From Paramecium tetraurelia (Eukaryota; Ciliophora; Oligohymenophorea; Peniculida; Parameciidae), in contig NW_001798976.1 in NCBI RefSeq assembly GCF_000165425.1, positions 2,590-66,589 on the forward strand: a stretch of 64,000 nucleotides of DNA, given 5' to 3'. The notes beneath the pieces were generated by a model that saw only the letters and a list, made by a program, of their open reading frames with translations, made no database searches and was not told the origin of the DNA. Below are positions 289 to 61,172 of the stretch, piece after piece; the first letter of the stretch is position 1, and the number at the start of each line of letters is the position of its first letter. Position numbers and translations under genes: made by a program.

Positions 289-3200
289 ATGTTTATTGAG
301 TTCCTCCTTATTCAATTATTTAGATTAAATGTTGAAGCCTATTATCTTTAGAATTTTGCTTCTCCATCAAGCTCTAATGACGAAGGTAAATATAAAGTCA
401 TTATTTAGGGTGGTTAATCAAAAATCCTTATAATGGAGCTTCTGTCCATACATATGATTGTGGAGGAAACACAATTCTTGGAGGATATTAGATATTTGGA
501 TGCTACTTATCTACGAAAACATCATTAATGAAATATTTCCGCCTGCCACCTCATTACAAAGTTCGTGTTGATATCACCTTCTGGAAGTTTAATATTAAAA
601 TATCTTAAGAATTGATGATTGGCAAGCAAACGTACAAAAATTTTACATAATTATTGATTAATGGACTCAGACTTGGCAATTTGCAAATAATGCAGGATCA
701 GATTAATGCGGGGGCAGTGGTACAGACTTTAGCGCTCTGTAATATAATGATTTTTCTTTACATACTTTGAATTCAATAATTGTTGAGTTTTACTCAGACT
801 GTGATAGCACTGTATTTTTTATTTTTAACACCTTAAGAACTTTTGGGGGTTAACTAATTTCTAAATAACTTTAAATGAATGCTACTTAGGATGTCTATTT
901 TGTTTTGATTCAACAGTTGATTGCATCATGTGGAAATTGTGGCAATCATTCTTTTAACTATAATATCTTGATGATGGTTTAGAGGGATGGAATAAAAATA
1001 AATTTCCATCATTTTCTGACACTATAAATGATAGTAAATTTTGTAACCTATTATAGTTTAATTGAAGATGCTTATCTTGCATTAAACGGATTCTGCAATA
1101 ACTTATCTCACCCTTCCAGATCACTCTTCTTTGATTATTCAATTTAGAGTTGAGTATTATACAGCCTTGCCAATAATTGTAAGAGTTTTCATAGATGATG
1201 TATACCAATATGGGCTCATGAATTATAAAAAAGAGGTTGATTTTAGGACAACGACAATTTAGAATTCAAAAAATGCAATTAAATTAGAAATATACTGTGA
1301 GGATGGCACAGTAGGTATCCGTGAGGTATAAATAATTCTTCGTGGACCAATAAATTTAATCTCATGTCTCGATGACAATTTAGTCCCTTTTGATGGTTGC
1401 TTTTCTAAAATAAGTATCTTGTTTAGAAGGTTGTGTATTTTGTGTCAAAGGAGAATGTTTGATGTGTGATACTAGATGGGATTATGATTCTGTAAACTAA
1501 ACTTGTGAATCTTTATGTGGAGATAAATATATCACAACGAATGAATAATGTGATGATGGAAATGACATCCCATTTGATGGTTGTCATTAATGCAACTTTT
1601 CATGTCCTTTAAACTGTTAAAATTGTATCTTTGGTAAATGTCAGACTTGCAATTCTGGTTATTATTATTCTAATGGAATCTGTAACAGTAATTATGATAA
1701 TTTGCTGACTTTATCGATATCTCAAGTTGACTAAAATTAATAACCAAATTATTTAGTCGAAATTGATGTTGCAGTATGTGGAGATGGGAAAGTCTAATAG
1801 GATGAAGAATGTGATGATGGTAATAACTTTTCTAATGATGGATGCTATAATTGTTATTTTTAATGCATTTCAAGTTGTTAGAAATGCATTTTTAATAAAT
1901 GCTTATAATGTAGTCCAACATATGAATTAATAAACGGAAAATGCTATGAAAAGCAAACATAATTCAGATCAGTAAGTTGTAACAGATTAGATTCACTAGC
2001 TAGTGATAATTTAATATAAGAATTAAGCTAATTTACATGTTGTGACACTGCTGATACCTAATACTATAATATTTGTGACCTTGAAAGATCAAGAATCAAA
2101 TATAATGATCAAATAATTGATCTTAGATGCCCCTTTAATTGTGAAATCTGTTAACTAGGGTAATGTAAACAATGTTTGGCTAACTATTTCCTATTAAAAA
2201 ACTAATGCATCTCTTAAATTACCAAAGGAGTACTAGTAGAAGATGGAATTCATATAGGCCAAACCGAAATCGGATGCTACAAATGCAAAGATAGTTGTCA
2301 GGTTTAATGTCTTTAATGTATTGATTCCTATTGCTTGCTTTGTATTGATGGCTGGTCACTTGTGAATGGTATATGCAAATACATTTGTGGAGATAATTAA
2401 ATAGCTATTTGGTCTGTAGAATAATGCGATACAAATTTAGATTATTGTATGGACTGTTAGTTCGTCTGTTCTGAAAACTGTTCATATTGTATTAATTTTT
2501 AAGATTGTTTGGTTTGTACATTACCTTACATTTTGGTTAATTAAGAATGTTAATTACCTTGTATAACAGGATGTAAGTAATGTAGTAATGGCATTTGTTA
2601 TGATAACTGTCCAAATGGAGAGTTAAATATTGATGGCATTTGCTATTCAATTTGTGGCGATGGGATTGTATAATAAAAAGAGTAATGTGATGATGGGAAT
2701 GACATATAATTTGACGGTTGTTTCAAATGCCAATATTCATGTTCTCGATATTGTGAAAATTGTTTTGAAGGAGTTTGTTATTAGTGTTAGCAATTCTTTA
2801 AACTGATACAAAATGAGTGTTATGATGACTGTGGCAGTGGAATAAAATCTTACGATGAATAATGTGACGATGGCAATCTTATTAATGTGGATGGGTGTTC
2901 TTCTAATTGTCAGATTGAAATTGATTATAAGTGTTAGGAGTAAGCTTATAGTTATTCTGATTGTCAATATGCTGAATCTCCTTATATGTTTGTCAAATTC
3001 TTAAACCAAACATACGATAAATATTTTTTTGAGATATCATTCTCATAAGCAATCTTTTTTAAGGATAATTATGATTTGGAATCTCTTTTTGAGTTTAGCA
3101 TTGATGAAATAAGCGATGAGGATTATTAAATAAAGTTAGAGTCATACTTTGAACCTGTAATTAATAAAATTCTAAACTTTTAATTTCAGGTATAAATTGA

Positions 3201-4527
3201 ACTATTTGTATCTACTAATAGTAGTAGTCTCACTTTTTTTAATTTATTTCTGATAAATGAAGCATATAATTCAGATGAAATGGAAATACTCAATCCATCA
3301 GAGAAAGTATCACTTAAAAAATATTCTAAATTGAGTCAATCTGACATAGAAAAGACTAAATAGCTCACTTAATATTAAGAAGCTATGATTATGGCTTAAG
3401 GGATAGGTAGTGTAATTGTACTAATTTCTGGAAATTTTTAAATTTTTGTCGAAATTCTAGACAATTTACAGTATCAATCATATTTAAAGTACATTAACGT
3501 TATTTATCCCGAAAATCTCTACCTTTTTTTTGAAGCCACTAATTTAATAAGTATTGTTCCAATTTTAGATTATTTATAATTTAATGGATTCTATTAAAGA
3601 TTTCTATTTTACGAATTTATTGAGTCTTATGCTAAATTATAGTTTTACAATTTAAATGCTCATTTAATTACTAATCTGCAATTCTTTTTCATCTAAGTAA
3701 TATCTACCTTTATATTTGTTATGATTCTGAGATTAATTTCAAAACTCACCTTTAGAATAGTCTACAGAATATAATCCTAACATTATCTAATTTTTAGGCT
3801 TAGAAGTTTATAATCAAAATTGCTTATCTAAATATTCAATTGGATTTTTAATTTTTTTCATTACATTTTGACTTTTCTGGCAGAATTTTACTAAAATGGT
3901 GTATTAGATGTTTTGCTTGCAAACGCTTGGGATTTGCTATTTAAAATATTTTTAAGTTTAACATCCTCCTCAAAATAAGATATTATTTCTCGAATATAGA
4001 ACATCATTTCTTATTTGGTCTTGGCAGCCTCAGGAGGCTTTATCACATCCTCATTAAAGCCTGTTTTTTCAAGAAAGAATTAGATGCTAATTAATAGATA
4101 TCGGGCAGTTTATTTACTTAAATAATTTTTGTTTTGTTATTTCTTGATATGTTTTCAAAATCATTAATTGATCTAAATATTGATGTTGACAACTACAAAT
4201 ATCATTTACTTAATTGTATTAATTTTCGCAAAACTTAACTTGTAGGCATTAGATAAATTGTAAATGATTATAATGGAAATTTCAATTATTACATTTACTT
4301 TTTCTACGATATTTTATTTGAAAGATTACAGTGATTTAATAAGTGAGTAAGATAAGATAGTGTTGGGTTTTGCTTAAATATATTTGTTGATTTCAGGCTT
4401 ATTAGGAATTTTCATTAAATAAGTCATTATGATGTATAAATAAATTAAAAAACGATGCTTTAAGATTAAATAGAGGAAAAAGATCTCCAAATAAGTTACA
4501 CACCTGATATTTGAGGTTGTTTCATGA
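289..4527 (+). CDS. Large cysteine-rich surface membrane protein with DUF4215-like repeats
   Basis: The start is ATG at 289, giving a hydrophobic leader (MFIEFLLIQLF) that looks like a signal peptide. Two related beta-rich extracellular modules follow. The first has the ciliate-type motif FWKIDDW, formed only after removing a 23-nt intron (587-609); another 23-nt intron lies at 386-408. The second begins YLDDGLEGW. Then comes a long cysteine-rich region with at least four 'CDDGN...DGC' units (about 1540, 1800, 2690 and 2860), typical of DUF4215/Myxococcus-type Cys-rich repeats, with many CxxC pairs. The last third is hydrophobic and contains several likely membrane helices before TGA at 4525-4527. 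The role is probably cell-surface or sensory; ligands are unknown. The junction near 850-950 between the two modules is not resolved: the best splice needs a 41-nt intron, longer than the others. About 1,350 residues. Confidence 0.75.
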
Positions 4528-10923: not shown

Positions 10924-11751
10924 ATGTTACAAACACTTCAAACTGAATTAAATAATATGCAGACCAAAAGTAAATAATAAGATCAGAGAGTAGAGAATTT
11001 GTATATTAGTTTTTAAGAAATCTATTAAATCAAAAATAATTTAAATAACCCATGTTCAACGAAGCATAATATGCTATATTAGGTAAGACCAGAAGTTTTC
11101 AATTAAATATTAATATTTTTAGATATTAAACAAATTTTACAATTTAGATTGGTAAGCAGAAGAGCCAAAGAAACTGTAAAATTACTGCTTCCGAAATAAA
11201 TAAATAATTTATAGTAATTAATAGATGAATAATAAAATGACATACAAATTAAGATATAAAGTGCATAGCAGGCAGGCAACGATCAAGATTAGCGATAAGG
11301 TTTGCAAGCAGCTTTGGATGGGATATCCTTACTTTCTAGAGCACATTTTGTTGAGTTAAGATGCTAAGCTAAACCTCATGAATTAATTGAGAAGATCATA
11401 AATCTAGTTTGCTTGGCTTTAGATCCAGCATTCAAAGTAGCAAAAGATAATTGGAAGGAATGCATAAAATATTTAGGTCAATAAAGTTTTATAGAACTAA
11501 TTTTAAATTTCAATATTAGTAGCTTAAATAATAAACAGTTATAACAACTAGAATAGGTTAATAATATTACAGAACAATAAGTAGCTTCAAAGTCATTAGT
11601 TGCTAGTTCTTTACTAATTTTTTTGAAAGCTGTTGTTGAATTAAGGTAATCTAAGCTTTACATGACATAAAATGAGATAAAAGAATTAGAGAGCAAAATA
11701 AAAAAAGAGCAAAAATTAATTGACAAGATAGAAAAGATACATAATTAATGA
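10924..11751 (+). CDS. F-box-like / dynein-stalk-like protein, copy 1
   Basis: This is an uninterrupted 275-codon frame, ATG 10924 to TGA 11749-11751, with no intron. Residues ~1-45 are a helical leader (MLQTLQTELNN). Residues ~53-95 fit an F-box: VRPEVFNQILIFLDIKQIL then FRLVSRRAKETV. From ~105 a coiled coil leads into a segment matching the microtubule-binding stalk of dynein heavy chains: LQAALDGI, VELRCQAKPHELIEKI, DNWKECIKYLGQQSFIELIL, then a return coiled coil (LYMTQNEIKELESKIKKEQ). Dynein stalks show the same order: CC1, S-x-x-K-P-P, W..AKK.LGD..F...L, CC2. No AAA+ motor is attached. An SCF-type adaptor that binds microtubules is a possible role, but this is inference. Its stalk differs from copies 2 and 3 (RCQAKP rather than KSFARP). 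Confidence 0.75.
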
Positions 11752-12388
11752 GAATTAGTTGATTAAAAATATGACAAAATTATTTTACTTGGCATTCTTA
11801 TTTTTGTTATAAAAAAATTATTTCTAACTCCTTCTAATTTAGTCATTCCCTAAATGTAAATACATTTTAACCAAATAGTTTTAATATTTTCTTATAATAA
11901 AACGAATGATGTATAAATATTTAAATTATACGAATAGTAATAACTGAATAATACAATTTAATAAGTATAAATAGTATTAACTCAATAAAAAAACAAATTA
12001 TGTTTAGTTATTCAAAATAAAATTATCGTGTAAACTGAATAAGACACATTTATTCAAAAAATATGAATAGTCTTAATACAATAATAAAACTATTTTCAAA
12101 TTATATTTATATAAATGATAAGTTAAATTGAATTGTAAAACTAAGTTTGTATATTTATTCAAATTATTTATCTTAGGATAAATATTATTAATAATTCAAA
12201 TCTATAACTAAGTTCTATATATATTCAAATTATTTATTTTAGGATATTCAATGAGCCTGATAATTTTTTTTAATATTATATTTTTCATTTTCATTTTCAT
12301 TTGACTTATGATTTCATTATATTTATTTATATTTTAAAGTCATTATTATTAATTCAATTATTATAATTTTAATTGAAAAATTAATCAA
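11752..12388. other. Spacer between tandem copies, with short direct repeats
   Basis: 637 bases of A+T-rich sequence between the first two F-box/stalk genes. It holds an imperfect direct repeat of the type ATTCAAATTATTTAT-TTAGGAT near 12157-12181 and 12222-12245, and many 'ATTAA/GAATAG' short words around 11930-12070. The last 30 bases before the second ATG (GAAAAATTAATCAA) match the leader of copy 1, so the duplicated unit includes part of the 5' flank. I see no additional gene. Confidence 0.5.
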
Positions 12389-13216
12389 ATGTTACAAACA
12401 CTTTAAACTGTTTTAAATAATATGCAGACCAAAAGTAAATAATCAGATCAGAGAATAGAGAATTTGTATGTTAGTTTTTAAGAAATCTATTAAATCAAAA
12501 ATAATTTAAATAATCCATGTTCAACTAAGCATAATATGCTATATTAGGTAAGACCAGAAGTTTTCAATTAAATATTAATATTTTTAGATATTAAACAAAT
12601 TTTACAATTTAGATTGGTAAGCAGAAGAGCCAAAGAAACTGTAAAATTACTGCTTCCGAAATAAATACATAATTTATAGTAGTTAATAGATGAATAATAA
12701 AATGACATATAAATTAAGATATAAAGTGCATAGCAGGCAGGCAACGATCAAGATTAGCGATAAAGTTTGTAAGCAGCTTTGGATGGAATAGCAAGAATTA
12801 ATAAAGCTCATATTGTTGAGCTGAAAAGCTTTGCCAGACCACCTGAATTAGTTGAAAAGATTATTAATTTAACTTGCTTTGCTTTAGATCCGACTTTTAA
12901 AATGTAAAAAGATAATTGGAAGGAATGCATAAAGTACCTAAATTAATACAACGTTATAGAACTCCTTAAAACTCATGATATTAGTAGCATAAGCGAAAAA
13001 CAGATATAATAGCTTGAATAGGTTAAGAGTATTTCAGAATAATAAGCAGCTGCAATTTCTCTAGTCGCAAGTTCTATCCTCATTTATTTGAAAGCTGTGT
13101 TAGAATTAAGATAGTCTTAAGTTTACGTGAATTAACATGCAATAAAAGAATTAGAAAGCAAAGTAAAGAAAGAAAAACAATTGATTGATGAACTAGGAAA
13201 GATCATTAATAATTGA
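12389..13216 (+). CDS. F-box-like / dynein-stalk-like protein, copy 2
   Basis: A second intact 275-codon frame (ATG 12389, TGA 13214-13216) lies 637 bp downstream of copy 1 on the same strand. Its first ~115 residues are almost identical to copy 1, including the F-box-like stretch (FNQILIFLDIKQILQFRL). The stalk half is more diverged and closer to the dynein consensus: ALDGIARINKAHIVEL, KSFARPPELVEKI, then DNWKECIKYL and the return helix IKELESKVKKEKQL. The RPPEL element corresponds to the K-P-P-E turn at the base of the dynein microtubule-binding domain. Tandem duplication is the likely origin. Product and partners are unknown; the domain assignments are by eye. Confidence 0.75.
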
Positions 13217-15464: not shown

Positions 15465-16712
15465 TCATTTTTCCTTTTTAACAATATTAAATAATTCTGT
15501 TTTTCTTATATTATTAATTACTTCCTATGTAATTTAATCTAAGCTAATATTTGAGATCAAATATTTTAAATACGCACAGATAAAAATACCAGAATCGTTT
15601 GGTTAAGCTAATTAAGGACATTCAGATATAATAATATCTTTTGACTTCCAAGAGATTGTCAAATTATATTGTTTGACGATTGGTTCAATCATATTCCATA
15701 TATGCTTGCAAGTTGTAACATAAAATATTGCCTTTTTTTTAGAACAACTATCATAAACCTTCATTTTTATATCCTAACCTTCAAAAAGTAATTCTAGTAG
15801 AATCCAATGGCCATTTGAATTGACAATAACAAAGATTTGTTAATAAACTTACCAAAATTATCCTTTAAAATAAGAAAATTCAGCAAAATAATTAAGTATA
15901 TCTATTTTTTGTTATTCAAATAAGAAATAAGGAATAATGAGAGTTCTTTTATATGCTTATATTTCAGCTAGTGACTTTAGATTAAAGAACTTTTCTGAAT
16001 CAATATAATTTATGTAGTTAAGATACGCTTCTATGATTGAATCATTTATGGCCTTTTCTGACAAAAGAGAAGAAAGATGATCTTTACTTAATTCAACATC
16101 GAACTTGGTCCATTTGTCATTCTATTTAACTTACGGCTTTTATTATTAGGGTTAAGGTGGTGTTTATTTTACTCCTGATTTGATTCTAAATGTTTTATTG
16201 GTACTTCGATCTTCTTGAATAAAGGATTATTGCAACATTGATTATTGCAAATTTTGTTATTTAATCAGTATGCTCCCATCCTAATTATATTCTTAGAATT
16301 TTTCAATCAAGGAAAGCTTTTGGAAAACCCCATCTACTTTTTTATTATTTGTTTTTCCATAGTATTCTGTTCCCCTACCATCGATTTAATCATTTTAAAA
16401 TTAACCCTCATAAACAAAATAATTGTTATTGCAATAGGCATCATATTGCTTTATATAGATTTTACCATTTCCATGCATTTTATTATTTTGAATTTCTCCA
16501 ATATAAACATAATCTTTTTGGATTATCATTTATTCCTTAGTATTCTTTTTTTAGACAATTAACTTAAATTATTTTGAATCCTGATTATCAAACTATTATT
16601 ATGAATTATTATTGAAGAAGATGAATTCAAATTTGAATTCTTAAGTTGGCTATTCTTATTGTTATTCTTAAGGAGGCTTTGATTCTTTTTTCAGTTTCAA
16701 ACCAAGACGCAT
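15465..16712 (-). CDS. MORN-repeat protein with Ulp1/SENP-type (C48) cysteine protease domain
   Basis: The minus-strand frame is open from ATG at 16712 (MRLGLKLKKES) to TGA 15467-15465. After a Q/N-rich leader come two MORN-like repeats (VYIGEIQNNKMHGNGKI; FVYEGQFQNDQIDGRG). A proline/glutamine linker (QTPPQPQQQKPQ) leads to a C-terminal Ulp1-like domain: KWTKFDVELSKDHLSSLL, a catalytic-type His in GHWILLEL, Asp in MKVYDSCSKK, and Gln...Cys in QPNDSGIFICAYL. These match the H-D-Q-C arrangement of C48 peptidases, which remove SUMO or related modifiers. MORN repeats may recruit the enzyme to membranes or cytoskeleton. A further open frame at about 16760-17000 (KTFKPSKCLCKSFK, KNERDIRNTRN) may be an upstream exon, so the start is provisional. 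About 415 residues. Confidence 0.7.
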
Positions 16713-17062
16713 AAAAATAGATATAAATATTATTAAAATATTAATTCTCTGAAATACTTCCCAATTGATTTTATTTTTCATATATTATTTTAAATAAAAT
16801 GTTCCGAGTATTCCTAATGTCTCTCTCATTCTTTTGAGGATCATGATATTCCGAAAAATCCTCTATTTTTTAATTAAATTATTGAATTATCACTTCCCTC
16901 AAAATGTCATTCTAATTTTGCAATTCTTCTTTAAATAATAATTTTAGCTTGAAGCTTTTACATAAACACTTAGATGGCTTAAAAGTTTTTACTTCAGCTA
17001 CAGAATGTAATTAAGTATTTATTAATTATTTTTTAATTAATTGTTTAAAATAAAAAAAAGCC

Positions 17063-17135
17063 GCCCTCCAAGGGGGTCGAACCCTTGACATTTGGCTTAA
17101 AAGGCCAACGCTCTGACCAACTGAGCTAGGAGGGC
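17063..17135 (-). tRNA. tRNA-Lys (anticodon TTT)
   Basis: 73 nt that fold as a complete cloverleaf on the minus strand. The acceptor stem GCCCTCC pairs with GGAGGGC. The D-arm reads GCTCAGTTGGTCAGAGC. The anticodon stem TTGGC/GCCAA closes the loop CTTTTAA, giving anticodon TTT. The T-arm is AAGGG-TTCGACC-CCCTT. The 3' CCA is not encoded, as expected in a eukaryote, and there is no intron. It reads AAA lysine codons, which are very frequent in this A+T-rich genome. Confidence 0.95.
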
Positions 17136-17300
17136 TGGATTAATTATTTAATTGATTAAGATTATTAATATTTCTTGATTTGTAATTTGATTCCAATTAA
17201 AATTTAAAATAGTTGAATAAATAAAATACTACAAATTTATTAATGAAAAGACTTTATAATTTAAAAATAATAATATCTATAATTTATAAGCATTTATCAA

Positions 17301-18036
17301 ATGGGATCAAAATATTTATAAAAATATCCAGTGTCTGAAGGTTTCCACTAAATTTTACATGATTTTGCCAGAGAAGTAAGTAGTATTTTAGATTAAAGGT
17401 ATTAAGAGATTAACCAGAAAATATTATAAAATATGGAGTTGATTATTTTGAATGCATGGTTTAAGAAAAGGAATTTAAATTTGAAAGCAAATACAACATT
17501 GCTAAAGGAAGCAACAGGCGAAGTGCAGTAGGTAATTAAATTAATAGAATAACATAAACAGTATGTAAGAAAAATAAAATAATTTATTAACCAGGAGTAT
17601 ACACAAATCCACCTAACCTTCAAATGTGACTGGAATAGCAAAAAATATATAGTAGAAAAAGACCTGAATATAAAAATGGGTAAAAACTAGGATCTGGAAA
17701 CGGAAACAATGTTCTTATATCAGTACTTTAGGAAGTTAGCCAAAAGAGAAAATAGCAGCATAAGAAAATGTCAATGATTTTTTATGTAAGATTGCAAACG
17801 ATATTGACAAATTTGAAAATAAAAATTAGATGATGAGAATCTGAATGATATTGAGGAGGAATCACCAAAGTTAACCAGCTTTGTAATTAAATAATATTAA
17901 TATATTTAGGATGTTAAAGACATGCTAAATATTATTAAAATTTAAGCAGTATCTATCTGAAAAATAGTTTGTAGAAAAGGAATAAGAAAAATAGTAAAAA
18001 AATTAGAAGTAATTTTGTTAAGAGAAGGAAGAATGA
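17301..18036 (+). CDS. RIIa (dimerisation/docking)-domain protein with IQ-like motif
   Basis: ATG 17301 starts MGSKYLQKYPVSEGFHQIL. Removing a 23-nt intron (about 17374-17396) gives HDFAREVLRDQPENIIKYG followed by VDYFECMVQ, a close match to the RIIa/R2D2 domain that docks A-kinase anchoring-type amphipathic helices. Such domains occur in axonemal proteins of the ROPN1/SPA17 type. The middle (about 17500-17850) needs two or three more short introns whose positions I could not settle. Near the C-terminus the segment MLNIIKIQAFVEKEQ resembles a degenerate IQ calmodulin-binding motif once a 19-nt intron is removed. The stop is TGA 18034-18036. A ciliary signalling adaptor is likely by family; the partner is unknown. 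It is transcribed away from the tRNA gene. Confidence 0.7.
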
Positions 18037-19004: not shown

Positions 19005-22000
19005 TCATTATTCATAATATCCCTTAAATTTTATTATCTTGAATATTCCTACCACTTCATCTATAAATAAGCTCTAATATAAGTATGTTAAAAATAAATC
19101 ACAAAATATTGAATCTAAGATAAATTCTATTAAAACACCAACCAACAAATACATATCAAATTTAAATTCCAATCCGTACATTTACCAAATTCCAATTATC
19201 ATATTCCCAAAAAATAAGATTACCCATAATATCCAATAAAAGCCTAACACTTTGCCTTTTCTTTTCTTTCTAAATGCTAATGCTAAGCCTCCATATAAAT
19301 AATTGCATATCCAAGTTTATATGATTACTAACAAATAATATGCAGTAAGCATTCCAAATTTGAATGGCAATGATGATAAATATACAGATGTAAATGTCAC
19401 ATACATCTAAATTTAGATTATATAGAGCGATAACTTTTATAAAGAGAATTCTAGAGAAGAGGCTGTAAAAATGGCATTTATAGGATAAACACTCCAAAAA
19501 TTTCTTGATTTCTTCTTATTTTTGACTTAACTCATTGGATTCTAAACCAAATTATTTCCAGTTTGCACTGTCTCATAGATATCAGAGAATTTCTTTGACT
19601 TTTTTTTTTTGATTGGTCTCTTGTATAAAATGCATAGCAAAGTAAGAAAAGATAAAAACAACCCAATTAAAGTCATTGAAATGGCAAAAGCACTATTTTA
19701 GACAGTTTTAACAAATTTGAATCCTTATGGTATTTCGAAAATGCTTGACAAACCAGATGAATTGGTAGTTACATTTTTAACTATTTAAACATAAGTACCA
19801 AAATCCCCTAAAGTATTTACTTAACAAATTGTGTAATACTTACATTTTAATAACGTGGCCTTAGTATTTTCCCAGATTTATTTATCTTCATTCCATTGTA
19901 CACAAACATTATTCTCATTAAGATCTGCATAATATTAATCACTTTTTGGAACAACAATAACCATATTCATTCCAGTTACTGGCAATATTTTTCCAGATTT
20001 TATTATTTGTATTCTAGAAATAGTTGAATTAATAGTTTAACCAGAAGATCTATGATTTTAATAGTAAAGATGCATTTAGTTGAAAATTAAAGGAGTTTGT
20101 GCATCTGATTACAGAATTTTAATTTCTGCAAGGTTCTCCTCTGTCAAATAAATTTATGGACTTAATAATTTTTTATCATTATCACAAGTACCATATGATT
20201 TAACAAAATTATATTTAAATGCAGAATATGAGTCATCACTAAATAAATCAAATTTTCCTATCACTTATTTATGAAAAGGTCCTGCAGTATTTTAAATTTC
20301 TGAAATCATAATATCTTCAGATTATTTTAATATTGCATTAAATAATGAATTATCCAGATTAGTTAATTTCTGAGCTGCAATGTTTTCCTATTAATATAAG
20401 TTTTTAGAGATAGCTCCAATAGCAGTAAAGTATTTTACATCAAAATTTAAGGCGATTTATTTATCAAGAGCTTATTAGAATTATTTAATATTGCTTTCTG
20501 TGACTGCATAAGTAGTATCTGATATCAATTGAATTATTTCGACATAGTTTGGATCAAATATAGTTTGGGTATTCAAATAAGTCAGTAATTCAGTTTGTAA
20601 TTTAATGAAATCAGATGTAGTTGTGAATTAACATCGACTTCCTGATATATTCTAAATACATTTACAAGATATCAATAGACATCTACCATACATATTGCAT
20701 TATTTATCACTCTGACAGAAAAAGCCTTTGGAATTAAGAGTACCTATAAATGGATAAGGTCCAAGACTTGAGGTAGAAACAAGGATGTTGCCATAAGCCA
20801 ATGCATCATTCGAATTAGTTGCAGATGTCAATTAAAACCCAGATGTCTCTGATGTGCATTAACCATTATATAGGATTAATGAACTTTGACATTTTGTACA
20901 AGTATTCAGGGCAGTACACTGAGTACAAGTAACTGGACACTAAAGACAATTCTATTCCTCTAAATAATAACCATCCTTGCATTATTTGCAAGTATATTGA
21001 TTGGTTGTTGAAGTATCAGATTATAATTCGCATTTATAACAATTCTATAAATTAATAATAGATCCAGAGCAATCTAAACAATAATAGGTAGGATTTGACG
21101 AACCTAATGAATTATCAGTCAATTTCAAGAACCCTGGCAAACAAGTGTTGCATTAAAAACTACTTCCTAAATTAATACAAGTATCACAGTTTTCAAATAA
21201 AGAACCACACTTCATACATTATTACGTGCTAGTTAATACATATCCAGCTTCACATTTTTAACATATTATATTATTAGTTGTTCCTGCTGACATTGTGTTT
21301 AAACAAGTTTAACAGCCGATATTAAAACCAGAACATAAATAGCAATACTATTTACTATTATCATAATAATAATTATTTGTACAACTTGTACATTTATTTA
21401 TAATGCATTATTCACAACTTGCATATTTAGCAGAACAAGCAGTACATTTCCCTTAGGGATTAATGAAGTAGCCATCTGAACACTTTGTGCATGTTGAATT
21501 TGAACAAGTAACACAATTTGTCATCAAAGCTGTTTAACTTTCGCATTAACCAACACAAGATAAAGCATTAGATCCTTTGACATAACCTGTTTGACATTGA
21601 GAACATATTTTCTTAAAGATTTATGAGTCTCCACAAGTACTACAATATTTGATTGGACAGTTTTCACATTTTTTACCAATTAATATGTAATCACTAATGC
21701 ATTTTAAACATACTGTCAAATCTTAATTAAATAAGAGACAATTCTTATCATCTAATGAACATAATTTATTTTCAGTAGATTAATAACCATCATTGCATTT
21801 GCCGCAATATGTCTTTTATGTTTCATCTATATAAAAGGTTGATCCAACTTAACAGTTTAAAATTTCAGGGAAACAAAATGTAGAGTTTGTATGTTTTGCA
21901 TATCCAGTAATACATGTTGAACATTTATCATCTTAATGTATCTCACATTACTTAATATCTTAGTAGCAAAGAGTTCCATTTACAGATACATGATAATTGT

Positions 22001-22418
22001 TCTCACATTTATTACATTTTCCAGTTTAAAAATAATATTTGCAATTCTAAATCTCATTAGTGTTGATACAAATCTGAGTTTTATCATCTTAGTTTTTTAA
22101 TATATATTTATCTTAGCATTTAGAACATAAAGCATCCACTTAAATTGAACAATATAATATTTTCAACCAACATTTTCCATTTGACAACAAATAATTATCA
22201 ACACATCCTTTACAATCTCTCTATTATTATATTGTTTAATCACAAGTTGCTGCACTTGTACAGATGTCCTTTTCACCAACAATATAATTTCCACAATCTA
22301 AACAATTTAAAATTGTCTAAAAACAATACAATCCATTTTCTAATCCATTGTCACATGAACAATAAGAATTCTCGCCGTTCGTAATCCATATTAGAATAAA
22401 CAATCCAACTATGAACAT
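19005..22418 (-). CDS. Large cysteine-rich membrane protein with GPS-like motif and multipass C-terminus
   Basis: The minus-strand ATG at 22418 begins a signal peptide (MFIVGLFILIWITNG). About 500 residues of furin/EGF-like cysteine-rich repeats follow, with regular CxxC spacing (CLDCGNYIVGEKDIC, CDQTIQQQRDCKGC). A beta-rich, less cysteine-rich region then leads to CVQWNEDKQIW ... C ... CQVNTLGDFGTYV. That C-W-W-C-C-L-x-F spacing resembles the GPS autoproteolysis site of adhesion receptors and polycystin-like proteins. After it lie a first membrane helix (SAFAISMTLIGLFLSFLTLL), a basic loop (YKRPIKKKKSKK) and several more helices, ending at TGA 19007-19005. About 1,120 residues. It is probably a surface receptor or polycystin-related protein; no channel pore was recognised. 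It shares its general plan with the gene at 289-4527. Confidence 0.7.
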
Positions 22419-33920: not shown

Positions 33921-34748
33921 ATGTTACAAACACTTTCGACTGAGTTAAATAATATGCAGGCCAAAAGTAAATAATAAGTTCAGAGAATAGAGAATTTATA
34001 TATTGGTTTTTAAGAAATCTATCAACTATCAAATAATTTGAATAATCCAGGTTTAACTAAGCATGACATGCTAAGTTAGGTAAGACCAGAAGTTTTCAAT
34101 TAAATATTAATATTTTTAGATATTAAACAAATTTTACAATTTAGATTGGTAAGCAGTAGGGCAAAAGAAACAGTAAAGTTAATTCTTCCAAAATATATAG
34201 ATACTTTATAATCGTTAATAGCTGAATAATAAAATGACATATAAATCAAGTTCTAAAGTATATAACAAGCAGACAACGATCAAAATTAATAATAAGCTAT
34301 GTAAGCGGCGTTAGATGGATTAGCAAGAATTAATAAATCTCATATTGTTGAGCTGAAATCCTTTGCCAGACCACATGAATTAGTTGAAAAAGTTATTAAT
34401 CTAATTTGTTAGTTACTAGATCCATCATTTAAGGTACAAAAAGATAATTGGAAGGAATGCCAAAAATTCCTTAATCAATCAAATTTTATATCTTAAATTA
34501 TAAATTTAGACATTAGTATTTTAAGTGATAAGCAGTTATAATAACTCGAATAAGTGAATAGTATTTCAGAATAATAAGCAAGGGCAATATCTATAGTTGC
34601 AAATTCTATTCTTAATTATTTGAAAGCTGTATTAGAAGTAAGATAGACTAAAGTTTACATGACATAAAAAGCGATAAAAGAATTAAACAGCAAAATAAAG
34701 AAAGAGCAATAATTGGTTGATTAGTTAGAAAAGATCATTAATAAATGA
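33921..34748 (+). CDS. F-box-like / dynein-stalk-like protein, copy 3
   Basis: A third intact 275-codon frame (ATG 33921, TGA 34746-34748), 21 kb from the tandem pair and on the same strand. It aligns without gaps to copies 1 and 2. The F-box-like core (FNQILIFLDIKQILQFRL) is identical. The stalk resembles copy 2: ALDGLARINKSHIVELKSFA, RPHELVEKVINLI, DNWKECQKFLNQSNF, and the return helix IKELNSKIKKEQQL. Conservation of exact length and open frame in three copies argues that the protein is functional. A role in linking microtubules to ubiquitin ligase components is inference. Confidence 0.75.
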
Positions 34749-57083: not shown

Positions 57084-58417
57084 TCACAATTCATATTAAA
57101 AGAATATAACAATTGCCGTAATGTCATCTATTCCTTCACTATGAGCTTTCCATCCAGCCACTGATTCTTGAACTATCTTCTAACATGCTCCCTAAGCATC
57201 ATTCTTCTGATAAAACGGATACACCATATCAGCTATCTAGATTATTTAGACTCATAATACACTCTAATTCTCCAAAAACTCCCATATTCCATCAGATCCT
57301 AAAACTATAAATATATCCTCCTTATTGTCAATCTCTACTGATTTGATATCTGGAGTTTAAGACACTCCTATAGCTGCAGCAACAGTGTCTCCTAAACTTC
57401 TGCTCATTGCCAATCCAGGGAATTAGGCTCCTCTTGCCCATACTCTCGATGGTCCTATAGGTGCTCCATTAGGTAAATGATATGTATCGACTACTCCTCC
57501 ATTCTACTCAATTCTGATTCTTTCATTCTCCTAATGTGGTTTATGATCTATTGACAATTCAACTACATTTAAATTGTTGGTATTGCTGTTCCTTTTAACC
57601 AAGATTGCTCTGCTATCTCCTACCCATCCACAATGAATAGTATTTTCTCTTATTAATATTACTGTCAAAGTAGTCCCTGAAAATTAACAACCAAATTCTG
57701 TCTAAAATTTCATCTTCTGATGCATCTCAAAGAATACCTTCTGAAAATCAAATACCTTATAAAATTTAGTTAAATTATCTACATACATAACATTATTATA
57801 CATTTTAACAACTCTTTAATAAACGAACTCACGTAATCTCCATCCATCCCATGTCCATCCATCACTGCAAAGCCATAATTATTATCATCCAATTATAAAC
57901 ATAACTCTCGATCTTAATTCGTTTTCTCTTAAATCCCATCAAACCCTGCTCTAGATTAACTACAATGTGTAATCTTTATTTTATTCTTTCCTTATTATTA
58001 GATGGTCTAATTCTCCTCTCTTTAACTCTTAATTGGGAGAGTCTGAGTTAATGAACTCTATTATCCTTGTAGCTGTTATTTAGTTTTAGAATCTAATATA
58101 AGTCTGTTTTTTAAAAGAGGTGGCTTTTTTGTTAAATCAGCCCCTGATGTTGATTTTTCCATTTACTTCTAATAGCCTTTTAAGTCTGGCAACTTGATGG
58201 TCAATCTTTGGGCAGGAACACTCTAGATCAAATTAGATTACGGTTTTAAGCTATTCTGATTTTAATCTTCAACTGTAGATTATTGTACTCTTGAATCACT
58301 TCTGTCTCTTTTCTGTGTAAAATGGTAATTAGGCTTAGTCACTGGCTATTCTTTCCTATTTTCTGAGGAAGATCGATTGATTATAGGTTTGAGTTGTTAT
58401 CCAAATTTTTAGAACAT
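57084..58417 (-). CDS. PP2C-family (PPM) protein phosphatase
   Basis: The minus-strand ATG at 58417 (MFQKFGQQLKPIINRSSS) begins a ~150-residue Q/S/K-rich leader. The catalytic domain follows with the PPM motifs in order: SRAGFDGIQEKTNQDREL, YGFAVMDGHGMDGDYVSSF, FGCQFSGTTLTVIL, HCGWVGDSRAIL, LAMSRSLGDTVAAAIGVSQ, FIVLGSDGIWEFLEN and GIDDITAIVIFF. Metal-binding aspartates are present. Introns lie near 57750-57830. The stop is TGA 57086-57084; about 420 residues. PP2C enzymes are Mg2+/Mn2+-dependent Ser/Thr phosphatases. Two ATGs are possible; the upstream one keeps the frame open and is used here, and a second at MEKSTSGADL would give a shorter protein. Confidence 0.9.
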
Positions 58418-58439
58418 GACAAATTAATTTATATAAAAT

Positions 58440-59252
58440 TCACTTTTAAAGTAAATGGAAACTATCTTCAATTTTGTATTTGGGCAACACATAATTAAAA
58501 GTATTTGCTTAAGGTATGAATCTACCTCCTATGGCATGTTATCCTTCAAATTCCTTTATGGCCTTCAAAGGCAATCCCAAGGAGATCACAAACTGTGGCA
58601 CATACGCATTATACAGATTTCCATTGTCAGTATGCCATCCAACTGGCAGATTGATAGCCAGCACTTTTTTGCTTACTTCTGAAAAGGCATGCATAAATTC
58701 TCTCACTGGCGTTTTGGGTTATTCAATTGAATTCAGTGTGATAGCATCCACAACTAGATCGTAATCGTTCAACCAATTTGCTAGAATATTCTTGGTCATT
58801 TAAACATTTAATTGTTCTTATAGATTTTGAAGAATGTCAAAATGCAGTGTAGCTGAATGCGATTTACATTGCATTGCCAATCTACTTCTCAGGGGATCAT
58901 TAGGGTATAACAATACAACATCGACTTCTACTTTTCTCTATGCCAAATATCGAGCAGCTGCCAATCCAAAATATCCGTTTTGATACGAGGATCCTGAGAA
59001 ATCCTATCCGATAATAAAAATAACTCTCTTAAGAGGCACATCTATCCTTGATAAATACAGGATGTATTCTGCAACACTCTAACCTCCTATTTCTGCCAAT
59101 TAAGCCTTAGTATATCCGTATTCCTTTCCCATCAATGATCCCATTAAATTTTGAAACTCGCTACCTTTTAAATATGATAATGTAGGGGCAGGTAATGATG
59201 CTTGGTCTTGAGCCAAGAGAGGGTTAAACAAAGTTAGAAAAAATATTAACAT
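58440..59252 (-). CDS. NAXE: YjeF N-terminal domain protein, NAD(P)HX epimerase-like
   Basis: An intron-free 270-residue minus-strand frame, ATG 59252 to TGA 58442-58440. It starts with a hydrophobic leader (MLIFFLTLFNPLLAQ) that looks like a signal peptide. The YjeF_N fold follows: TKAQLAEIGGQSVAEYIL, RVIFIIGQDFSGSSYQNGYF with LAAARYLAQRKVEVDVVLL, DYDLVVDAITLNSI and KKVLAINLPVGWHTDNG. The glycine-rich GNNGGDG loop of active epimerases reads GQDFSGSSYQNG here, and the Asp of LxVDAIFG is kept but what follows differs. It may be a divergent or inactive paralogue. In animals NAXE repairs damaged NAD(P)H and also exists as a secreted apoA-I-binding protein. It lies 23 bp from the PP2C start. Confidence 0.75.
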
Positions 59253-59814: not shown

Positions 59815-61172
59815 ATGAATAATTACAAAGCAGTTCAAATTTAAATAATTGATTAATAATGTTAGCAATTACAAGACAGCATCTCTGATTTGGGATGCTA
59901 TTACTCGTTAATCAAAAAAGATGCTAAATTTATTGATGTTGCTTTATTTGCTGATTCGAATAATTGTGTAAAAATATCATTAAGTGATCCGGAATCATTA
60001 ATCAGCATGATCATTAAAAATTTAACAGATAAGTCTGTAAAGATATCTATTAATATCGTAGGTGTTAGGCAGATTGAAATTGTCAGTGAGAGAGATATTG
60101 GAATATAAATAAGAGTATACATAATGGTATGAATTTTAAAGTGAGTGTTCGACACAGATAAAGGTATAGTTCAAATTCATATTACTACAAAATGATGTAG
60201 CCTCCCCATCACCAATTAAGAGTTCTTTAAACAATTCTCAACAATATTCGCTTTCATCAAATAGTTATTAAGAATAGAGTGCGAATAGTTCAGAAAAGAA
60301 ATAAATGATTCATCCTCATTATCTAACTGTAGGATAGGAACATGATTATCCTGTGATATCTCAATTTCCTACTTCTCCAACCTTTAAGAGAATGATAGAT
60401 GCAGCCACTCAAGTAGAATGCGAAAATCAAGACCTCTTCACGTTGAAATTGGATAAGGAACAACTAATAGAATAATACTAATAGAGTTAGAATTAGCTAA
60501 TGAAATTACAATAAGAATACTTGCAATAAAACAGTCTATATAAGGAGTATGATTCATAGATTAAATTATAACTTGAAGAGATCTAAAAAATGAAGATTTA
60601 AATTCAAAATTATCAAAAAGAAATATTGCTATTTAGATAAAATGAATAACAATAGTAATAACAAAAATCATAACCCCTAGATGATGCATTAATTGAATAA
60701 ATCAAAAAGCTAAAAGTCACAATTAAATAATTGGAGGAATAAAATTAAAAACAGAAATTAGAACTAGCCAATCAATTGGAGATATCAACTAATCAATAAA
60801 ATTAATTGAATGCCATAACTGAAAAATTAGACAGGAATGATAGCATTCTTTAGTTAACAGAGGAGTAGAATGTATAATTATTTAATATGAATATAGAAAT
60901 ATATCTTAAGTCTGAATTAATAATTGGTTTAGCGAGAATAATAATAGAACATTATTATTCAAGAGCAACAGTTGAATGTCGATTAGTTAGAGAAACAATT
61001 GAAAGAATAAAATAATCAAATAGATAAATTGAATTACACTATCAAAAAGGAGAATTTATTTAATTCTGTACTCTAAAGAGTTTAAGAATAGCAATTGTAA
61101 TCTTACATGAAAATAATTGGTCCCCTAAATGAGTATTTAGATCAATCTAAGGACAGATTACTTTATAATTGA
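59815..61172 (+). CDS. Coiled-coil protein with globular N-terminus
   Basis: ATG 59815 (MNNYKAVQIQIIDQQCQQL) starts an alpha/beta head of about 100 residues (LGCYYSLIKKDAKFIDVALF; VCISLSDPESLI-like segment; INIVGVRQIEIVSERDIG). After a short intron near 60127-60163, a Ser/Gln linker (SPSPIKSSLNNSQQYS) leads to a long coiled coil (LKLDKEQLIEQYQQSQNQL, IKKLKVTIKQLEEQNQKQ). A 25-nt intron near 60873-60897 restores the frame into VQREQQQNIIIQEQQLN. The end is NEYLDQSKDRLLYN, TGA 61170-61172. About 430 residues. The head-plus-coiled-coil layout recalls centriole cartwheel proteins, but I find no specific SAS-6 signature. Function unknown. Confidence 0.6.

Follow-up and report, generated by a model that had tools for sequence, protein, structure and literature searches.

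Three genes in the DNA analysed here, a window of 64,000 nucleotides that corresponds to C23:2590-66589 in the genome of Paramecium tetraurelia (69 Mb, 231 contigs), appear to encode proteins of 275 aa in which an F-box is followed by a dynein stalk with its microtubule-binding domain (MTBD) and by no motor. The joining of the F-box to the dynein stalk in one gene is well supported by the sequence comparisons given below, and the C-terminal two thirds of the three products, P0001-P0003, is, as judged from profile matches, homologous to the dynein stalk and MTBD.

The window has a GC content of 21-33% in 2-kb steps, as expected of ciliate-like nuclear DNA, and its frames were read with the ciliate code (table 6, in which TAA and TAG stand for Q). 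A reading with table 11 was rejected, since under it no ORF of the window reaches 150 aa, whereas table 6 gives 87 that do. The sequence-only reading of this DNA had claimed three frames of 275 codons, and they are there exactly, as table 6 ORFs on the forward strand that each end in TGA: copy 1 (P0001) at 10924..11751, a single open frame with the F-box at about codons 53-90 and the stalk and MTBD at about codons 91-275; copy 2 (P0002) at 12389..13216, a tandem duplicate of copy 1; and copy 3 (P0003) at 33921..34748, about 21 kb further downstream. Their mutual identity is 71-79%. Copies 2 and 3 have an in-frame TGA five codons upstream of the ATG, and copy 1 has one farther up. When the copies are compared with each other, 40-42 of 45 nucleotides agree where the coding sequence begins, against 23-27 of 45 immediately before the ATG and 16-20 of 45 shortly past the stop; the unit of 275 codons is therefore the gene, and it has no motor attached. 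The claimed absence of a motor is further borne out by the Pfam matches of P0001-P0003 and of a fourth family member described below, C12a, among which there is no AAA family. Two other frames of 275 aa in the window, 60305-61132 and 57710-58537, were judged by inspection to be unrelated to P0001-P0003.

Between copies 2 and 3, the reverse strand carries at 15465-16844 a frame with MORN repeats and an Ulp1-type protease domain (Peptidase_C48), both over the Pfam cut-off, that is, a SUMO-protease-like/MORN fusion situated near the F-box genes. On the same strand, 19005-22418 is a frame of 1137 aa that matches the Giardia variant-specific surface protein family (PF03302) with 33.2 bits against a cut-off of 31.4, with no stretch passing alone; its product is perhaps a cysteine-rich surface protein. 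A forward frame of 1084 aa at 1273-4527 has four DUF4215 stretches, and a tRNA-Lys (TTT) at 17062-17135 on the reverse strand lies within a same-strand ORF (16627-17499), which casts doubt on one or the other as a gene.

The F-box half of the family is recognised directly. The segment that had been called F-box-like, EVFNQILIFLDIKQILQFRL, is present in all three window copies, and all three exceed the gathering cut-off of Pfam F-box PF00646 (20.5 bits), with 23.8 bits for P0001, 24.8 for P0002 and 21.1 for P0003; about 50 residues precede the F-box in each. In copy 2, the F-box segment occupies 12545..12658 of the forward strand (codons 53-90, with the PF00646 match at residues 57-88). A genome-wide F-box search gave 15 matches, three of which are the window genes; the loci of seven of the other 12 were read by eye, and most look like F-box proteins without a stalk. 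This search misses true F-boxes, since two relatives whose F-boxes are over the cut-off, C12a and C183, are absent from its matches. A further F-box over the cut-off, followed by more open frame, was seen on the contig of the window (L054; C23:197472-197537, reverse strand), and L055 was another of the loci read by eye; neither was assigned to the family.

The stalk half was compared with the general Pfam profile and with a profile made from the dyneins of the same genome. Against Pfam MT (PF12777), P0003 reached 26.0 bits, above the cut-off of 24, and P0002 reached 20.7, below it; P0001 and C12a were not listed as matches, and in the genome-wide Pfam MT search copy 3 was the only member of the family listed. 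From the 51 matches of that search, 30 loci were fetched and 24 of them went into an own-genome stalk HMM, six having been excluded beforehand as partial or interrupted (L017, L019, L031, L033, L035 and L038). With this HMM, P0003 scored 49.3, P0002 45.5, P0001 36.0 and C12a 27.5 bits, and in P0001-P0003 the match runs from the first coiled coil (CC1) through the tip and into the second (CC2). When each of six family members was shuffled 1000 times (960-1000 shuffles reported for each, about 5900 in all), the maximum was 8.7 bits. Aligned as a profile to the profile of the 24 dyneins by hhalign, the four members gave a probability of 98.6% and a score of 106.1; the reversed profile scored 15.6, 100 column shuffles no more than 25.4 and 82 other frames of the window no more than 22.1. 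The expectation that residues of about 105-270 would match a dynein stalk profile thus held up, residues of about 90-275 matching stalk profiles strongly.

Searches of PDB sequences lead to the same proteins. A phmmer search with copy 2 matched 25 distinct sequences at E<=10, and the profile of the three copies matched 32 at E<=1 (best 7.7e-07), in both cases with the stalk half. All 32 can be recognised from their name, length or entry as dynein heavy chains or constructs of the MTBD: the names are mostly those of dyneins, some read only 'AAA+ ATPase domain-containing protein', 6rzb_C is named MKIAA0325 in an entry entitled for the mouse dynein-1 MTBD, and one chain of 4583 residues is labelled radial spoke head protein 9 homolog. 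The chains without a dynein name were taken as dyneins because of their length and the position of the match. In a tree of the stalk with dyneins, a branch (83/93) sets the four family members apart from the rest, C12a itself being a very long branch, and no dynein class of origin is singled out.

The claimed order of F-box, CC1, MTBD and CC2 is therefore found in the window copies, PF00646 and the own-genome stalk HMM each matching all three. In copy 2 (forward strand), CC1 with most of the helix H1 would lie at 12659..12820 (about codons 91-144), where the stalk-profile hmmsearch alignment begins at residue 97 and AlphaFold gives helices of low confidence. The rest of the MTBD tip, which includes P151, W177 and S224, would lie at 12821..13096 (about codons 145-236), as placed by HMMER and PDB alignments and by comparison of columns, and CC2 at 13097..13213 (about codons 237-275), covered by the hmmsearch alignment up to residue 266 and by an AlphaFold helix. 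Of the two motifs by which the sequence-only reading had recognised the stalk, KSFARPPEL is literal in copy 2 but reads RCQAKPHEL in copy 1 and KSFARPHEL in copy 3; DNWKECIKYL is present in copies 1 and 2 but is DNWKECQKFL in copy 3.

Predicted structures fit this order with low confidence. With an alignment of the three window copies, AlphaFold2 gave a mean pLDDT of 46.4 for the full length and of 56.8 (pTM 0.46) for residues 88-275, and the run of predicted helices, one long, several short and one long, is compatible with a stalk. In the stalk construct, the last three blocks of the CC2 helix (157-187) have a mean pLDDT of 67, 82 and 81. The full-length model (pLDDT 46) was left out of the fold search. 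The Foldseek comparison with the PDB gave 390 matches at E<=10. The best five, with E of 0.011-0.12 and TM of about 0.25, are structures of a dynein stalk, an MTBD or a dynein complex, none being below E 0.01; STAT3, a radial spoke and designed helical bundles come next. Because the AlphaFold models are low in confidence, the antiparallel hairpin is taken from the homology.

Relatives of the window genes were found elsewhere in the genome. C12a (L004; C12:100094-100921; 276 aa) matches over its full length with 25% identity, has an F-box of 23.1 bits and a stalk of 27.5 bits, and its stalk reaches 93.9% singly by hhalign. A search with C12a found two more, C183 (L044), whose exon 1 has an F-box over the cut-off (21.4 bits), and C12b (L045), which has no Pfam match at all, F-box included; taken singly, their stalk halves are at chance level (0.0 and 1.0 bits; 0.5% and 9.3% by hhalign). 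The three diverged members jointly give 94.8% by hhalign, a value carried by C12a. PF00646 is thus above the gathering cut-off in five of six family genes, and both the F-box and the stalk are shown in four of the six full genes, C183 and C12b being co-linear relatives with an unrecognisable tip. A putative intron of 23 bases is seen in one relative. On C4, the locus L005 contains at its positions 1465-1870 a dynein-stalk piece (30.9 bits) with a frame break near its end; inspection of the upstream sequence by eye showed no F-box, and the piece is likely to be a relic of the family. A scan of prokaryote genomes, a collection not meant for ciliates, gave a sole match (L067), rejected as an ordinary bacterial frame that fits the letters of the pattern by chance, and a viral collection, likewise not meant for ciliates, showed no relative. 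Among the titles and abstract openings listed in searches of the open literature, which takes in neither subscription papers nor annotated eukaryote databases, none describes a protein with an F-box and a dynein stalk; an earlier annotation of the pair may have escaped notice.

The window copies are under purifying selection, the three pairwise comparisons giving whole-gene dN/dS values of 0.30, 0.29 and 0.33. Within the F-box, dN/dS is 0.11 in the two pairs that have differences; copies 1 and 2 have no nucleotide difference over F-box codons 53-90 (pS = pN = 0). In the MTBD, the three pairwise values are 0.26-0.31, so that the tip, too, is constrained. The F-box is the most constrained part of the family proteins by dN/dS and by residue retention: between P0002 and C12a, 16 of 26 F-box residues are kept, whereas the MTBD retains 17 of 99. 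Over their first 405 bases, copies 1 and 2 are identical at 40-45 of every 45 positions and, beyond, at 29-37; at bases 405-450, copy 2 agrees with copy 3 at 42 of 45 positions and with copy 1 at 29 of 45. Such near-identical N-terminal halves (10924-11328 and 12389-12793) next to diverged tips suggest gene conversion of the N-terminal half in copies 1 and 2, with a boundary near codon 135.

The tip was compared with dyneins residue by residue. In the alignment to the own-genome dyneins, the dynein signature residues P151, W177 and S224 are present in all four members. Of the residues invariant in the 24 own dyneins, the W of the helix before CC2 is Y or F in the family, and an A is V or F. 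Of the own dyneins, 21 of 24 have a proline in CC1 and 22 of 24 one in CC2. At the CC1 column, three members of the family show a gap and C12a has I; at the CC2 column there is a gap in every one of the four, with a nearby unaligned proline in C12a; we treat a stalk-helix proline as usual rather than defining, since some true dyneins lack one. The tubulin-contact residues of yeast dynein, taken from PMC7042235, were mapped by counting along the 6kio_M alignment from an anchor of two arginines seven residues apart, with which K3116, K3117, E3122, R3124 and V3133 land on the correct letters. In the order P0001/P0002/P0003/C12a, the K3117 site reads R/K/K/K (basic in all four), the R3124 site R/K/K/A and the R3152 site K/K/K/P (each basic in three of four); E3122 is E in all four. 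The R3159 site reads G/N/N/H and is kept in none; three residues earlier, at 182, all four members have a basic residue. Thus four of the six yeast sites are kept in three or four members; R3201 lies past the end of the 6kio_M alignment, and the nearest column looked at, K/I/I/F, is uninformative. The own dyneins are variable as well at the R3152 and R3159 sites. At the three sites in H1, the four members together keep 11 of the 12 charges that face tubulin.

The tip carries a net charge of 0 in P0002 and P0003, +1 in P0001 and -1 in C12a, against -1 to +7 in the 24 own dyneins. This near-zero charge is weak evidence, because the mouse MTBD, too, is reported to be neutral as a whole although its binding face is positive (PMC4987762). 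The contact elements of the MTBD are H1, H3 and H6, and the switch of affinity is a movement of H1 with the registry of the stalk, according to PMC6629372.

From these data, an SCF adaptor role with microtubule binding seems plausible. The F-box would bind Skp1 and through it a cullin-RING (SCF) ligase, which the genome makes possible in that it has two Skp1-type matches and 16 cullin matches, some of the latter being fragments of a single gene. The short stalk would double back on itself into an antiparallel coiled coil capped by the MTBD; since the ATPase ring is absent, CC1 cannot be slid against CC2, and the tip would have one fixed affinity for microtubules and act as a static docking head. 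The ligase would thereby be held on ciliary, cortical or cytoplasmic microtubules and ubiquitinate proteins bound to the lattice. We lean, if only slightly, towards this reading, an SCF substrate receptor docked on microtubules via a motor-free stalk. The more general proposal, that a natural motor-free dynein MTBD serves as the targeting domain of an SCF receptor in a ciliate family that is microtubule-docked or tubulin-directed and has a fixed grip, we put at even chances.

In SCF receptors, it is normally the region behind the F-box that binds the substrate. As that region is here a dynein MTBD in which H1 keeps 11 of 12 charges facing tubulin, the stalk might instead present tubulin itself for ubiquitination, for example in ciliary resorption; the sequence cannot tell such a substrate role from docking, and we consider it rather unlikely that tubulin is the substrate. 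Alternatively, the stalk could have ceased to bind microtubules and instead imitate a dynein tip, catching for the ligase proteins that bind dynein MTBDs, such as light chain 1 of outer-arm dynein. This would suit a tip that keeps its homology and has lost the W, the A and both stalk prolines, with a net charge near zero. However, 11 of 12 contact charges in H1 survive, and a neutral MTBD can bind microtubules, as PMC4987762 indicates for the mouse, so that a dynein mimic seems to us improbable.

An equally low probability is given to the stalk being a structural remnant, that is, a mere coiled-coil spacer or dimeriser with no partner, the F-box perhaps working outside SCF. The singly unrecognisable stalk halves of C183 and C12b and the broken, F-box-less fragment L005 speak for it, but the dN/dS of the MTBD (0.26-0.31) and the invariance of P151, W177 and S224 in four members speak against it. 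That the whole resemblance is due to chance, or the frames non-coding, might be thought from copy 1 and C12a, which singly have no Pfam MT match, and from the weak AlphaFold models; it is contradicted by the profile-profile score of 106 against controls of at most 25.4 and by the purifying selection, and its probability is negligible.

A naturally occurring gene of this plan would mean that a dynein MTBD can exist apart from the motor, would supply a ready-made constitutive MTBD to structural studies, and would tie ubiquitin ligases directly to the microtubule lattice in richly ciliated cells. To our knowledge, the dynein MTBD is known only within dynein heavy chains or artificial chimeras.

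With the stalk and MTBD of dynein heavy chains (PF12777) the family shares the order of CC1, H1, a turn with proline, a further helix, one that begins with W, a last one that begins with Ser, and then the first part of CC2. Unlike a heavy chain, it has no AAA+ ring before or after the stalk; its coiled coils are only about 50 and 40 residues long, and it lacks the two stalk prolines as well as the tryptophan in the final helix of the tip. It resembles SCF F-box proteins (PF00646) in having the F-box in the N-terminal third, followed by a different domain. In the well-known SCF receptors, WD40 or LRR repeats come after the F-box, whereas here it is a dynein stalk, with about 50 residues in front. 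There is a likeness, too, to the engineered seryl-tRNA synthetase-MTBD chimeras (PDB 3err and 3j1t, both among the PDB matches of the three-copy profile), in which a motor-free dynein MTBD sits on a short coiled coil; those chimeras are artificial, whereas the Paramecium family consists of natural genes that have an F-box and no synthetase.
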